Shown in pieces: positions 2,133-6,472 of a stretch of 6,472 nt of DNA. The notes below the pieces were generated by a model that saw only the letters and a list, made by a program, of their open reading frames with translations, made no database searches and had not been told where the DNA came from. The position numbers and the translations under genes were made by a program. Positions within the stretch are counted from its first letter, which is position 1, and every line of letters begins with the position of its first letter. The DNA comes from Tenericutes bacterium ADurb.BinA155 (GTDB taxonomy: Bacteria > Bacillota_I > Bacilli_A > RFN20 > CAG-826): positions 1 through 6,472 of the forward strand of contig MVZL01000070.1 in assembly GCA_002068375.1 (NCBI GenBank). Direction: 5' to 3'.

Positions 2133-2163
2133 AAAGAAAGACCATTAAGGTCTTTTCTTTTTT
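2133..2163 (+). terminator. Rho-independent terminator after the aminotransferase gene
   Basis: AAAGACC (2137-2143) and GGTCTTT (2149-2155) form a perfect 7-bp stem around the loop ATTAA. Beyond a bulged T at 2156, AAAG (2133-2136) can pair with CTTT (2157-2160). The 3' side is a run of T broken by one C, reaching 2163. The stem is A/T-rich, but its place about 30 bases after the stop codon and before a new operon fits a terminator. Confidence 0.7.
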
Positions 2164-2218: not shown

Positions 2219-4054
2219 ATGGATTGGCTGGAGATGGTCGTGAAGATGTTCGGCGCGATTGCGTTCATCGACCTCCTTGCCATTCTTTTAGCCGGGACTC
2301 ATTCCTTTGCAAAATTAAACGGCAGCACCAAAGGGCGGACGCTCCGCCATGTCCTTTTAGGTGTCACCGGTGGCTTATTTGGCATCTACGCAACGATCGC
2401 GGGCTATACGATGCCCGGTTCCTCCGCTCAAATCTCAATCCGCGATGTCGGAGCGATGCTCGGCGGCGCCTTAGGCGGACCTTTAGGTGGCCTGATCGCC
2501 GGCACCTTGGCCGGTGTTTTCCGGCTTTTCTATCCGTGGATTCGAGCTGGGAATACCTCCGTTTCGATGCTTTCGGGCACGACGATTCCCTGCGCGATCT
2601 CCACTTTTGTGATCGCGATGGTAACCGGCTTTCTCCATCCTTGGTTCCGCAAGGCGAAACATCGGGGCTTATGGGGCTTATTGATTGGCGGTGTCAGTGA
2701 GGTTTTCCATTTGCTTCTGGCCTTCATCTATTTAACGATCATGCACGATGCGGGCTATGCTTGGGACGCGCTTTCCACCCTGATTGCCCCCTTCATCCTC
2801 ACCAACATGCTTGGCTTTGGTTTACTCATGTATGCCTTCGATAAGATGCGGGGGTATCGCGATACCGAAACCCATGCCAAACAAGTGGAAGGGGAACTTG
2901 GGGTCGCGACCTCGATTCAGGGTTCGATGCTTCCGAAGATCTTCCCAGACTTCCCGGGGCGGAAAGAATTCTCGATTTCGGCTTCGATGGCCCCGGCGAA
3001 AGAAGTCGGCGGCGATTTCTATGATTTCTTCTTCACCGATTACGATCATTTCGTTTTCTTGGTGGCGGATGTCTCCGGCAAAGGCGTCCCGGCCGCCCTC
3101 TTCATGGTGATTGCGAAAACCCTGATCAAAAACAATGTCCAATCGGGCCTTCCTTTGGCCGATGCGATTACGAAGACCAATCAGCAGCTTCTTGAAGGCG
3201 ATGACCAGCAGATGTTCGTGACGGCCTGGGTGGGAATGCTCCAAGTCTCGACGGGGGATCTCACTTACGTGAACTGCGGTCATAATCCGCCCTTATTCAG
3301 CAAAGCGGGCGAAGGCTTCTCTTATTTGAAGAATATCTCTGGCTTCATTTTGGCCGGTTCCCGCAAAAGCAAGTACAAGCCCTATTCCTTAAAGATGGGT
3401 CCGGGCGATCGGATTTTCCTCTACACCGACGGCATCACCGAAGCGATGAATCCTGCGCTCGAGCAATATGGGGAGAAGCGCTTGCTTGATTTAGCGAATT
3501 CCGCTCCGCTCACCAATACCCCTGAAGCCGCTTTGAGTTTGGTGAAAGCGGATGTCACGAAGTTCACCGCGGGGGCGGCCCAATCGGATGATATGACGAT
3601 GCTGGCCCTTCAGTTCGTTGATTTCTTCCATCATAAAGAAGTCGATGCCAAAACCGAAAACATCGCGGTCCTGTCGAGCTTCCTTGAAGAGAACCTGAAA
3701 GCCAAGAACGCTCCGGTGGCGATCATGGATAAGCTCGATATCGTGATTGATGAAATTTTCTCCAATATCGTGAAGTATTCGGGCTCACCCCATTGCGACT
3801 TTGGCGTTTTCGTCCACGATAATTCCGTCATTATTACCTTCGAATACGCGGGCGAACTTTATGATCCGACCAAGGCGGCAAAACCGGATACGAGCTTGCC
3901 GGCGGGTCAACGTCAGGTTGGTGGCTTAGGCTTATTCATCGTGGGCAAAATCGCCGATCATTTTGTGTATGGAATTAACAATGGCCACAACTATGTGACG
4001 ATTGAAAAAAGCTTTGGATCCACTCCAAAAGGAGGAGAATTAATCCATGGATAA
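2219..4054 (+). CDS. Membrane sensor–PP2C (SpoIIE/RsbU) phosphatase–RsbW-like ATPase fusion
   Basis: This 611-residue protein has three parts. Residues ~1-208 hold about six hydrophobic segments, with 'IRDVGAMLGGALGGPLGG' and 'GTLAGVFR' matching the 5TMR-LYT sensor domain known from LytS-type kinases. After a linker helix (~209-240, ending 'IQGSMLP'), residues ~241-467 form a SpoIIE/RsbU PP2C phosphatase with metal-ligand candidates Asp266 (GGDFYD), Asp284 (ADVSGKG), Asp404 (YTDGITE) and Asp457/458 (SDDMT). Residues ~475-600 form a GHKL ATPase of the RsbW/SpoIIAB type, with N-box 'DEIFSN' (Glu512, Asn516) and glycine box 'GGLGLFIV' (568-575). The family roles are dephosphorylation (PP2C) and phosphorylation (ATPase) of a STAS antagonist at the inner face of the membrane. 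The expected DxG box reads 'YAG' (543-545), an oddity that may weaken ATP binding. The gene overlaps the next by 8 bases, and that next gene encodes a STAS protein, the natural substrate. Confidence 0.9.
   Translation: MDWLEMVVKMFGAIAFIDLLAILLAGTHSFAKLNGSTKGRTLRHVLLGVTGGLFGIYATIAGYTMPGSSAQISIRDVGAMLGGALGGPLGGLIAGTLAGVFRLFYPWIRAGNTSVSMLSGTTIPCAISTFVIAMVTGFLHPWFRKAKHRGLWGLLIGGVSEVFHLLLAFIYLTIMHDAGYAWDALSTLIAPFILTNMLGFGLLMYAFDKMRGYRDTETHAKQVEGELGVATSIQGSMLPKIFPDFPGRKEFSISASMAPAKEVGGDFYDFFFTDYDHFVFLVADVSGKGVPAALFMVIAKTLIKNNVQSGLPLADAITKTNQQLLEGDDQQMFVTAWVGMLQVSTGDLTYVNCGHNPPLFSKAGEGFSYLKNISGFILAGSRKSKYKPYSLKMGPGDRIFLYTDGITEAMNPALEQYGEKRLLDLANSAPLTNTPEAALSLVKADVTKFTAGAAQSDDMTMLALQFVDFFHHKEVDAKTENIAVLSSFLEENLKAKNAPVAIMDKLDIVIDEIFSNIVKYSGSPHCDFGVFVHDNSVIITFEYAGELYDPTKAAKPDTSLPAGQRQVGGLGLFIVGKIADHFVYGINNGHNYVTIEKSFGSTPKGGELIHG
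4029..4035 (+). promoter_or_regulatory. Shine-Dalgarno site of the STAS–kinase gene, inside the upstream gene
   Basis: AAGGAGG lies in the last codons of the phosphatase gene, 11 bases before the ATG at 4047; a second GGAG at 4034-4037 sits at a 9-base spacing. It fixes the start of the downstream protein and allows independent as well as coupled initiation. Confidence 0.8.
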
Positions 4055-5228
4055 CGTTAAAAGCCGCGTCGAGAAAGATGGCCTGGTGGTCGAACTTAGC
4101 GGTCACATCGACTCCAGCAACGCCGAGGCCGCCGAGGCCGCGATCAACGAGACCCGGGCGAAAGAAAAGGCGGGCGATTTCACGATCGACGCCCAAAATC
4201 TCGAATATATTTCGAGTGCCGGTCTTCGGGTGATTTTGCGTTTGTCCCAAGTCGAACCGACCTTGAAGCTCATCAATGTCTCTTCCGCCGTTTATGAAGT
4301 CCTCGAGATGACTGGTTTCAGCGAAATGATCCCGGTCGAGAAGGCCTACCGCGTCCTCTCGGTCGACGGTTGCGAGGTGATCGGCCAAGGCGCGAACGGC
4401 AAAGTCTACCGGATTGACGCGGACACCATCATCAAGGTCTATAACAACCCGGATTCGCTTCCCGATATCAAACGCGAGCGCGAACTCGCCCGCAAAGCCT
4501 TTGTGAAGGGAATTCCGACCGCGATTCCTTATGATGTCGTTAAAGTTGGGAATGGCTATGGTTCGGTCTTCGAACTTCTCAGCGCCAAGAGCTTCAGCAA
4601 ACTTCTGATGGAAGATCCGGGCAAAATCGATGAAATCGTGAAGATGTTCGTCGACCTCTTGAAGAAGATCCATAACACCAATGTCGAACCGGGCGAGATG
4701 CCCGATAAGCGGGAAACCTATATCGATTATGCCCATTTCTTGGCGGATTACCTGCCGAAAGATCAAGCGGATAAGCTCACCGCTCTTATTACCGCGGTGC
4801 CCGACGTCCACAAGATGATCCATGGCGACTATCACACCAAAAACGTGATGCTTCAAAAAGGCGAGGTGCTTCTGATTGATATGGATACCCTCTCCTATGG
4901 CCACCCGATCTTCGAATTCGCTTCGATGTACCTCGGATTCGTCGGCTTTGGCGAAGCGGATCCCGGCCAAGCCGGGCAGTTCTTGGGAATCCCCTATGAC
5001 CTGGCGAAAGAGTTCTTCCATAAGTGCATGGCGGAATATCTCGGAACCACCGACCCGAAGAAGATCCAAGAAGTGGTGGACAAGTCCCGGATTCTTGGTT
5101 ACGCGAGAATGTTAAGGCGCAGCATCCGCCGCTATGGCCTGAAGAGCGCGGAAGGCAAACCTTCCATCGATCTCTGCAAAGCGAAGCTCGCCGAGCTTCT
5201 CCCCCAGTACGATACCCTCACGTTCTAA
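4047..5228 (+). CDS. STAS-domain (RsbV-like) protein fused to an APH-like kinase
   Basis: This 393-residue protein has no membrane segment and is probably cytosolic. Residues ~1-104 are a STAS anti-sigma-factor-antagonist domain: 'VVELSGHIDSSN' opens it, and 'YISSAGLRVIL' (54-64) is the switch loop. Aligned on Gly-Leu with SpoIIAA, Ser57 takes the place of the phosphorylated serine. Residues ~107-390 resemble the aminoglycoside phosphotransferase/choline-kinase fold: a glycine loop 'IGQGANGKVY' (112-121), ATP-anchoring Lys130 (IIKVY), the catalytic loop 'HGDYHTKN' (259-266, base Asp261, Asn266) and metal-binding Asp278 in 'IDMDTLSYGHP'. The kinase part resembles the TIGR02172 paralogous family noted in Fibrobacter. 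The substrate is unknown; drug resistance is not indicated. Overlap with the phosphatase-ATPase gene makes that protein the likely partner of the STAS domain. A terminator-like hairpin follows. Confidence 0.88.
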   Translation: MDNVKSRVEKDGLVVELSGHIDSSNAEAAEAAINETRAKEKAGDFTIDAQNLEYISSAGLRVILRLSQVEPTLKLINVSSAVYEVLEMTGFSEMIPVEKAYRVLSVDGCEVIGQGANGKVYRIDADTIIKVYNNPDSLPDIKRERELARKAFVKGIPTAIPYDVVKVGNGYGSVFELLSAKSFSKLLMEDPGKIDEIVKMFVDLLKKIHNTNVEPGEMPDKRETYIDYAHFLADYLPKDQADKLTALITAVPDVHKMIHGDYHTKNVMLQKGEVLLIDMDTLSYGHPIFEFASMYLGFVGFGEADPGQAGQFLGIPYDLAKEFFHKCMAEYLGTTDPKKIQEVVDKSRILGYARMLRRSIRRYGLKSAEGKPSIDLCKAKLAELLPQYDTLTF

Positions 5229-5239
5229 TTGCATCTACT

Positions 5240-5284
5240 GCCCTCATTGCCTCCGCTTTAGGGGGGACGTGAGGGCTTTATTAA
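5240..5284 (+). terminator. Hairpin terminator after the STAS–kinase gene
   Basis: GCCCTCA (5240-5246) and TGAGGGC (5270-5276) are perfect inverse complements. Inside, CCTCC and the G-run at 5261-5266 can extend pairing with one G-U. TTTATTA follows at 5277-5283, a short T-rich tail. It lies 11 bases after the stop and before a separate transcription unit. Confidence 0.75.
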
Positions 5285-5319: not shown

Positions 5320-5325
5320 TATAAT
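5320..5325 (+). promoter_or_regulatory. TATAAT -10 box overlapping the start of the LytTR regulator gene
   Basis: A perfect TATAAT sits at 5320-5325 and shares two bases with the ATG at 5324. Initiation about 7 bases downstream would fall near A5333, which is the first base of a second in-frame ATG. The -35 region is poor (TACACG at 5297-5302, 17-base spacing, three of six matches), so an activator may be needed, or the box may be chance. No Shine-Dalgarno sequence precedes 5324. Confidence 0.45.
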
Positions 5326-6028
5326 GAGAACAATGAAAATCGCCGCCGTCGACGATGACGTCCACTTTCTCGACACCCTTTCCCATTTGGTGGCCCAAAG
5401 CCCCTATGGCAAAGAAGTGAACTTAGTGACTTTTACGAGTTCCAAGACGTTTTTACTTGCGGATCTCGCCACCTTCGATGCTTTTATCCTCGATATTTAT
5501 ATTGATGCGGAGACGGGTCTAAGCTTAGCGAAAATCCTAAAAAAAGAACTGAAGGAGCCCTGGATCATCTTTTTGACCTCCGCGGAAGACCAAGCGGTGG
5601 AAGCCTTTGAACTTGGCGCGGTCCATTATCTCCTAAAGCCGGTCGAGCCGAAGGGCCTAAATGAAGCACTCCGCCGAATCGAAGAAGGGGTGAAGGCGAA
5701 AGACAAACGGATCGTCCTCGAAAATAAAACGGGTTTTCAACGGATTTTACTTCGAAACATCCTCTATATTGAATCCTTTGGGAACGTCAAAGATTTTAAA
5801 ACGACCGAAGGGGTGATCTCCATTCGAAAATCGACGGAAGAAGTCCTTTCTTTATTGGCGGGGGATCCCCGTTTCTTTGCCTTATCCCGTTCCTATATCG
5901 TGAACTTTGACTTCGTTCGGAGCTTAAAAGGAGAAGGCCTTTTGCTTTCGAGCGGAGAAACTCTTCCGGTTCCGCGGGAGAAGAAAAAAGCCGTGATGGC
6001 GGCTTTCTTAACTTATCTCGGTTCTTAA
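5324..6028 (+). CDS. LytTR-family response regulator
   Basis: This 234-residue protein has an AgrA/LytR-type layout. Residues ~4-122 are a CheY-like receiver: acidic cluster Asp10-Asp12, phosphoacceptor Asp57 in 'FILDIYI', Thr85 in 'FLTS' and Lys105 in 'LLKPVEP'. Residues ~130-232 are a LytTR DNA-binding domain, with 'ILYIES' and the signature 'FALSRSYIVNFDFV' (185-198). Phosphorylation of Asp57 is expected to promote dimerisation and binding to promoter direct repeats. The start is uncertain: ATG 5324 has no ribosome site and overlaps a TATAAT box, while ATG 5333 (three residues later) has only GAG four bases before it and could be the 5' end of a leaderless mRNA. The stop overlaps the stop of the convergent GHKL kinase, its likely partner. 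The gene stands apart from the upstream operon behind a terminator. Confidence 0.92.
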   Translation: MRTMKIAAVDDDVHFLDTLSHLVAQSPYGKEVNLVTFTSSKTFLLADLATFDAFILDIYIDAETGLSLAKILKKELKEPWIIFLTSAEDQAVEAFELGAVHYLLKPVEPKGLNEALRRIEEGVKAKDKRIVLENKTGFQRILLRNILYIESFGNVKDFKTTEGVISIRKSTEEVLSLLAGDPRFFALSRSYIVNFDFVRSLKGEGLLLSSGETLPVPREKKKAVMAAFLTYLGS

Positions 6029-6472
6029 GGATGTAGGGGCAAGGCCCCTTCGACTTTAAAGACTCCTTCCGTGTAATCGAAGTTCAAGATCCCATCGTGT
6101 TTTTTAAAGACCGAATCGATCTGCTCCGCTCCTAAGCCGCGATTTCCATCCTTCCGTAAGGGGAAGCCCTCTTTAAAGTGGATTTCGCCAGAGGAGTTCG
6201 TCTCCTCAATCCGAAAGAAAGACTTAACTTCCTTTCCTTTAAGGCGGAGAAAAGGATCGCCGCTCTTCGAAAGAAGAGCCCCATTGAACGCGTTCTCCAA
6301 AAGATTGGCAAATAAGGTGATCGTTTCCGTTTCGTCCAAGGGGAAGCCCCCAGGAAAAATCAAATCGATTTCATAGCGAATTCCCGCTTCCTTTGCTTTT
6401 TTCTCATAGATCGAAAGGATGGCATCGAGGGCGTAAGAACCGCTATGGAACAGCGGGGCGGTGGGCTTTAAT
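6025..6472 (-). CDS. GHKL (AgrC-like) sensor histidine kinase, C-terminal fragment
   Basis: Read on the minus strand, the frame stays open to the right window edge, giving 148 or more residues of an ATPase domain; the N-terminal sensor lies outside. The TTG at 6361-6363 is an internal codon, not a real start, because homologous-looking sequence continues upstream: 'YALDAILSIYEKKAKEAGI' just before it is typical of the helix preceding the N-box in AgrC/NatK-type GHKL kinases. The N-box reads 'LFANLLENAF', and a glycine box 'GLGAEQI' lies 28 residues before the stop region with 'GVFKVEGALPL' as the last strand. Such kinases are membrane-bound and phosphorylate LytTR regulators. The gene converges on the LytTR gene with a 4-base overlap, unlike the usual co-directional pairing. 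Confidence 0.85.
   Translation of the reverse strand, partial: LKPTAPLFHSGSYALDAILSIYEKKAKEAGIRYEIDLIFPGGFPLDETETITLFANLLENAFNGALLSKSGDPFLRLKGKEVKSFFRIEETNSSGEIHFKEGFPLRKDGNRGLGAEQIDSVFKKHDGILNFDYTEGVFKVEGALPLHP
6035..6049 (+). terminator. Possible hairpin past the LytTR stop, inside the kinase 3' end
   Basis: AGGGGC (6035-6040), loop AAG and GCCCCT (6044-6049) form a compact 6-bp G/C-rich stem 6 bases past the regulator stop and within the last codons of the minus-strand kinase. The plus-strand tail (TCGACTTT) is not a clear T-run, and the minus-strand tail has none. It could slow or end regulator transcripts, but this is weak. Confidence 0.3.

Follow-up and report, generated by a model that had tools for sequence, protein, structure and literature searches.

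Partner switching is best known for freeing sigma factors. What does such a switch control when its STAS protein is itself part of an enzyme? This question is raised by two overlapping genes in a stretch of 6,472 nucleotides from Tenericutes bacterium ADurb.BinA155 (contig MVZL01000070.1; the whole stretch is called the window below). Gene 1 encodes a membrane protein with sensor, PP2C phosphatase and RsbW-like ATPase domains, and gene 2 encodes a STAS domain fused to a kinase of the aminoglycoside phosphotransferase (APH) fold. We consider it likely that the two genes form a partner-switching unit whose switch gates the STAS-fused kinase; with switch protein and enzyme joined in one chain, catalysis itself could be the readout.

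Domains and key residues of the two genes

The module comprises the following features, identified from open reading frames (ORFs), Pfam searches, alignments and structure models.

2219..4054, + strand: gene 1, membrane sensor-PP2C phosphatase-RsbW-like ATPase, 611 residues (ORF, Pfam)
2306..2836, + strand: LYT-type multi-helix membrane sensor, 5TM-5TMR_LYT (PF07694), residues 30-206, E = 9.8e-22, long helices in the model
3044..3616, + strand: SpoIIE-type PP2C phosphatase (PF07228), residues 276-466, E = 8.2e-45
3647..4006, + strand: RsbW/SpoIIAB-like ATPase (HATPase_c_2), residues 477-596, E = 6.4e-8
4031..4037, + strand: Shine-Dalgarno sequence GGAGGAG for gene 2, within the end of gene 1 (sequence)
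4047..5228, + strand: gene 2, STAS-APH-fold kinase, 393 residues (ORF, Pfam)
4071..4343, + strand: STAS domain, residues 9-99, E = 7e-12
4215..4217, + strand: Ser57, presumed phosphorylation site, aligned with RsbV Ser56
4374..4973, + strand: APH-fold kinase with K130, E144, D261, N266, D278 and D280, residues 110-309, E = 2e-19
5106..5132, + strand: basic cluster R354/R357/R358/R362 in a C-lobe helix (337-363 in the model), possible anionic-substrate contact

All five domains scored above the Pfam gathering thresholds, and genes 1 and 2 overlap by 8 nucleotides (ATGGATAA). A preliminary description of the locus, made from the sequence alone, had assigned the sensor, phosphatase and ATPase to one membrane protein and a STAS antagonist fused to a phosphotransferase-fold kinase to the coupled next gene, and both assignments were confirmed. 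The sensor of gene 1 belongs with the LYT/5TMR receptors (77.8 bits for PF07694, against a cut-off of 24.6). Across 37 aligned sequences, including that of the window, D266, D284, D404 and D457 of the PP2C part, which we take to be metal ligands, were invariant, as were D511, E512, N516 and G568-G571 (GGLG) of the ATPase; the metal site of the phosphatase and the N and G motifs of the GHKL ATPase are intact in gene 1, as in a partner switch.

In gene 2, Ser57 shares a column with RsbV Ser56 in an alignment to PDB 6m36, and a serine occupies this switch position in 93/93 STAS-APH proteins, a set that includes 13 divergent members (37-44% identity to the window protein). S56 and the six kinase residues (K130, E144, D261, N266, D278 and D280) were likewise invariant in this set, and the latter were intact in 107 of the 112 rows of a wider one. 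The AlphaFold2 model of gene 2 had a mean predicted local distance difference test score (pLDDT) of 92.5, and the kinase part possesses both the APH/choline-kinase fold and its catalytic residues. The residues of the basic cluster were kept in 79-81 of the 93 proteins and were mostly replaced among the 13 divergent ones. The constant residues would thus serve catalysis and the switch, with the variable ones bearing on the choice of substrate, and the cluster may contact an anionic substrate.

In the passages of PMC7522486 that concern the switch, RsbV is inactivated when RsbW phosphorylates it, and RsbU dephosphorylates Ser56, so that RsbV is able to rebind RsbW. By analogy with RsbW and RsbV, we propose that the membrane sensor of gene 1 governs the attached PP2C phosphatase, that the RsbW-like ATPase of the same protein captures the STAS domain in its unphosphorylated form and transfers a phosphate to Ser57, and that the phosphatase, under sensor control, strips this phosphate. 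Depending on the state of Ser57, the kinase would be either anchored to the membrane-bound ATPase or free, which would set its activity or its access to substrate; this substrate is probably a small, negatively charged metabolite. A precedent for an enzyme as the output of a partner switch is found in SiaC and SiaD, according to the parts of PMC8457831 and PMC7647112 that describe them.

Conserved linkage and surroundings of the STAS-APH genes

When gene 2 was used as a query, 7,999 of 8,000 scored candidates passed E = 1e-3, and the family is at least of this size. The 120 relatives among the matches listed were 58-91% identical, all with precomputed STAS and APH domains. A genome scan yielded 493 stretches encoding STAS-APH proteins, the best 80 of which were taken as loci, so that the locus counts describe closer relatives. 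These 80 loci belong to Bacillota, Actinomycetota and Spirochaetota, apart from one record that carries the label Bacteroidota; the four loci with less than 700 bp of upstream sequence were left out of the counts, and 76 were retained. The first tree and the 93-row set were made without L009, in which the kinase gene is split into two frames, and L024, a fusion. Since ORFs were called from the first ATG, GTG or TTG, some overlaps are overstated.

In 63 of the 76 loci, the STAS-APH gene lies in a same-strand run (gaps of at most 150 bp) with a gene for PP2C, an RsbW-like ATPase or a lone STAS domain. The run partners were an ATPase in 57 loci, a lone STAS in 50 and PP2C in 39, many of the contigs being short. 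Equal longest contigs (6624, 9582, 17880, 22786, 24087, 60742 and 68354 bases) suggest that seven of the listed proteins of the gene 1 type are encoded on the same contigs as STAS-APH proteins. The 42 PP2C proteins scanned share a common catalytic core and differ in their sensors (SpoIIE in 42, HATPase_c_2 in 37, HAMP in 9, 5TMR_LYT in 8 and dCache in 6). Moreover, seven of the 112 unique rows, counting the window, have the ATPase fused to the STAS-APH protein, C-terminally in six and N-terminally in one, and we therefore argue that the ATPase acts on the STAS-APH protein.

Transporters also occur near STAS-APH genes and may be further outputs of these partner switches. Among the MATE exporters, 14 of 18 carry a C-terminal RsbW-like ATPase domain (L005:11097-12830 and others), which Pfam shows in L005, L147 and L149. 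Dicarboxylate-type (SDF) symporters in L013 (1148-2767) and seven further loci have an N-terminal part that on visual inspection resembles a degenerate GHKL ATPase, with no detection by the ATPase model. NHLP-type peptide export genes adjoin STAS-APH genes in L044 (9222-14093) and L103 (14381-18754); ABC1 and ABC2 of this type scored above their cut-offs in L044, which also has a short HlyD-like fragment, and somewhat below them in L103, which also encodes a nonribosomal peptide synthetase (NRPS) with a reductase-type end. Near the module, formyltransferase-like, LPG_synthase_C and MATE genes follow one another in L005 (9474-12830), and L044 (4302-5963) has a gene of the GH3 acyl ligase type. 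Some STAS-APH genes are frame-split or broken by stops (L009:7989-9161; L090/L097), possibly by decay or assembly error.

In the window itself, genes of amidohydrolase, Lrp/AsnC and aminotransferase types lie 5' of the module. On its 3' side (5324-6472), a LytTR response regulator gene faces the end of a minus-strand gene for a GHKL (HATPase_c_5) sensor kinase, which is truncated at the window end. There is no reason for counting these flanking genes into the module, which is bordered by two hairpins.

2136..2156, + strand: terminator-like hairpin 5' of gene 1 (terminator scanner; fold z -2.24, 5/200 shuffles equally stable)
5240..5276, + strand: terminator-like hairpin 3' of gene 2 (-24.5 kcal/mol, z -4.6)

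The stability of the second hairpin agrees with the earlier proposal that a terminator closes the operon, although this hairpin is absent from the list of the consensus terminator scanner. That scanner placed 12 sites across the region compared with 4.4 in shuffles, the majority of them intragenic, and for this reason a closing terminator is plausible rather than demonstrated.

A SpoT/Mesh1-like hydrolase beside the kinase in relatives

A gene for an HD_4 protein stands directly upstream of the STAS-APH gene in 41 of the 76 loci, with an overlap or a gap of at most 30 bp in 38. Similarity to Rel/SpoT hydrolase domains was seen in two representatives of these HD proteins, one of which was compared with PDB structures and also resembles Mesh1. 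R21, H31, H55, D56, E59, D123 and N127 were present in 42/42 sequences and D60 in 41/42; we presume that the conserved residues from R21 to N127 form a (p)ppGpp hydrolase site. Mapping the HD gene onto a tree of 85 STAS-APH proteins takes 16 changes in its presence, at least 7 of them forced by starred branches, which indicates that the linkage was repeatedly lost or gained. In a survey of 291 Clostridia genomes, 15 had a match to the kinase family (E up to 1e-60), 15 had one to the HD family (E up to 1e-30) and 7 had both (hypergeometric P = 1e-6, without correction for relatedness); in these seven, the two genes are adjacent in five genomes, fused in one (G245) and far apart in one (G316).

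Fusions of HD_4 and APH domains that lack STAS constitute a further large family. Both domains were carried by 120/120 proteins among the matches listed (P0242-P0361), and the six kinase residues were kept in 111/111 distinct fusion proteins. Examples of such genes are L141:1495-2973, followed by a gene for a MazG pyrophosphohydrolase, and L161:562-2058. The same type of HD hydrolase is also fused to an ADP-ribosylglycohydrolase (L164:88-2046), which hints at nucleotide or ADP-ribose chemistry.

The hydrolase encoded by the adjacent gene, present in about half of the closer relatives, probably acts in the same pathway as the kinase. We tentatively put forward, as a possibility well short of probable, that these loci represent an undescribed signalling route, in which the switch-gated kinase and the SpoT/Mesh1-like hydrolase make and destroy a phosphorylated, nucleotide-like signal or metabolite. 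The adjacent genes and the fusions would reflect opposing halves of one cycle, the window would hold a minimal, kinase-only version, and the carriers would be widespread, many of them gut or rumen bacteria. The hydrolase link allows a specific guess at the chemistry, which could be tested on the HD-kinase fusions as single proteins. The identity of the substrate is not rested on the association of the HD gene with the basic cluster (46/81 basic-type rows vs 1/23 non-basic rows with adequate upstream sequence; Fisher test, P = 3e-6): the cluster changed about four times on the tree, well-supported branches carry only two independent pairs, and the association is therefore inseparable from shared ancestry.

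Judged by title and the start of the abstract, none of the papers found by searching a collection of open-access full texts had the STAS-APH family as its subject (preprints and most subscription papers lie outside this search). In the full texts searched, an alarmone hydrolase was not mentioned jointly with an anti-sigma factor antagonist or an aminoglycoside phosphotransferase.

Alternative outputs and known systems

We weighed the possibility that the RsbW-like ATPase sequesters an alternative sigma factor encoded elsewhere, or the primary one, with the STAS-APH protein as anti-anti-sigma factor and the kinase modifying something secondary. The ATPase and STAS domains do resemble RsbW/SpoIIAB and RsbV/SpoIIAA, and one paper, by its title, deals with an Rsb network that targets the primary sigma factor in Chlamydia trachomatis. 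However, neither the six main ORFs of the window nor the terminal minus-strand ORF yielded a sigma-factor domain, in line with the preliminary description, and homologous loci do not always sit beside a sigma factor: sigma genes occurred in 3 of 90 fetched neighbourhoods (3-20 kb) in a scan of moderate sensitivity, which was queried with ORFs from 20 fetched regions, some of these ORFs being antisense frames rather than sigma genes.

We also surveyed whole genomes, mostly drafts of unstated completeness. A single match to sigma region 3 was found in 12 of 25 genomes, more in 12 and none in one. The single matches comprised 2/11 host genomes of one set (G004 and G006) and 10/14 of the other, in which three further genomes had two matches and one, probably incomplete, had none; the region-3 search did not include G009, which had 42 region-2 matches. 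G004, which holds a locus (L030) with the sensor type of the window, PP2C-ATPase, HD and STAS-APH, had one strong region-2 match above the cut-off and one below it, and the other eleven genomes searched for region 2 had 2 to 42. These results argue against an obligatory linked alternative sigma factor, and not against a primary or unlinked one. The invariant kinase residues and the fusions of ATPase and kinase in seven loci also speak against a sigma switch, and we regard it as unlikely.

A second alternative, in part overlapping with a STAS-gated kinase rather than exclusive of it, is that the enzyme phosphorylates a protein partner, such as the lone STAS protein, the HD hydrolase or a transporter, and that its STAS domain is used for docking only. 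Its catalytic loop weakly resembles those of Bud32, RIO and CotS/CotI kinases, and many operons encode possible protein partners. Nevertheless, its fold neighbours are mainly small-molecule kinases (choline/ethanolamine kinase, APH and MPH; a lexapeptide dehydratase complex is another neighbour), and the two-gene locus of the window encodes no further protein partner, neither a lone STAS gene nor a hydrolase gene being present in its 6.5 kb; this explanation therefore appears rather improbable. The preliminary description had left the output as phosphorylation of a small molecule or of a protein; the fold neighbours point towards a small molecule as the putative substrate.

Least probable by far is a kinase for drug or self-resistance under control of the switch: the top Foldseek matches are mostly aminoglycoside kinases and peptide-export or NRPS genes occur close to a few relatives, but identity to those kinases is 10-16%, no curated APH model reaches its cut-off, the family is large, conserved and encoded alongside regulators, and the basic C-lobe cluster would be unlike a pocket for cationic aminoglycosides. 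A role in phage defence was likewise a weak candidate, with no PADLOC match for the four proteins given.

Several observations weigh against the kinase-output switch and its proposed chemistry. The second serine of the SpoIIAA DSSG motif lies opposite Ala58 of gene 2, and it is this column that presumably holds the phospho-serine (Ser58) of SpoIIAA. PP2C, ATPase and lone STAS were all missing from the run in 13 of the 76 loci, and in seven from the entire fetched span (up to 8 kb). Further region-3 sigma factors were found in 9/11 and 3/14 genomes, and an unlinked sigma factor or the primary one is a further possible target of the ATPase; because most STAS-APH proteins of the 14-genome set are divergent (37-44% identity in 12 genomes, a broken copy in one), those counts speak for the family over the branch of the window. 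The HD gene is absent from the window and from its nearest relative (L001), was found in none of ten loci from small Bacilli genomes, and yielded only a Rel-sized match (739-residue frame) in genome G001; since it is missing from the window and its nearest relative, we view the window as a stripped-down form of a widespread circuit. Finally, the phosphorylation events, the direction of control and the kinase substrate are inferred. The earlier proposal that the STAS state gates the kinase is partly supported: the domains, the intact key residues, the gene overlap, the conserved linkage and the fusions in relatives speak for a kinase-output switch, and the proposal stays conditional as to these three points.

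In comparison with RsbU-RsbW-RsbV and SpoIIE-SpoIIAB-SpoIIAA, the module shares the PP2C phosphatase, the GHKL serine kinase and a STAS protein with a serine in the RsbV Ser56 column, and differs in the kinase output on the STAS protein and the absence of a sigma gene at the locus. Rv1364c (PDB 3ke6), the top structural match of gene 1 together with the PP2C of SiaA, also combines PP2C and an RsbW-like ATPase in one protein; its chain presumably holds PAS and STAS domains as well, whereas the sensor of gene 1 is a LYT-type membrane domain and the STAS domain is placed with the kinase in gene 2. The best NCBIfam match of the kinase part, TIGR02172 (122.9 bits, below the curated cut-off of 228.2), is a 226-position profile that covers only this part of gene 2; we take it to be a Fibrobacter paralogue family, and a search of open-access full texts found no mention of it. 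The HD_4 gene in the operons of relatives keeps the putative active-site residues of the SpoT/Rel/Mesh1 alarmone hydrolases, although the window lacks it. A fusion of LYT/5TMR receptors to a PPM phosphatase, as in gene 1, was already noted in PMC11109136, the relevant passages of which do not mention the RsbW-type ATPase or STAS-kinase present in genes 1 and 2. In SiaABCD of Pseudomonas, as described in parts of PMC7647112 and PMC8457831, a STAS-like protein controls an enzyme and not a sigma factor, as we propose here; that enzyme is a diguanylate cyclase bound by the separate SiaC, whereas the output domain of gene 2 is APH instead of GGDEF and is covalently fused to STAS. Partner switches with an enzyme output are thus already known, and the parts of the module are ordinary; what is unusual is the covalent kinase output and the link to a hydrolase, the latter newly found in this analysis.

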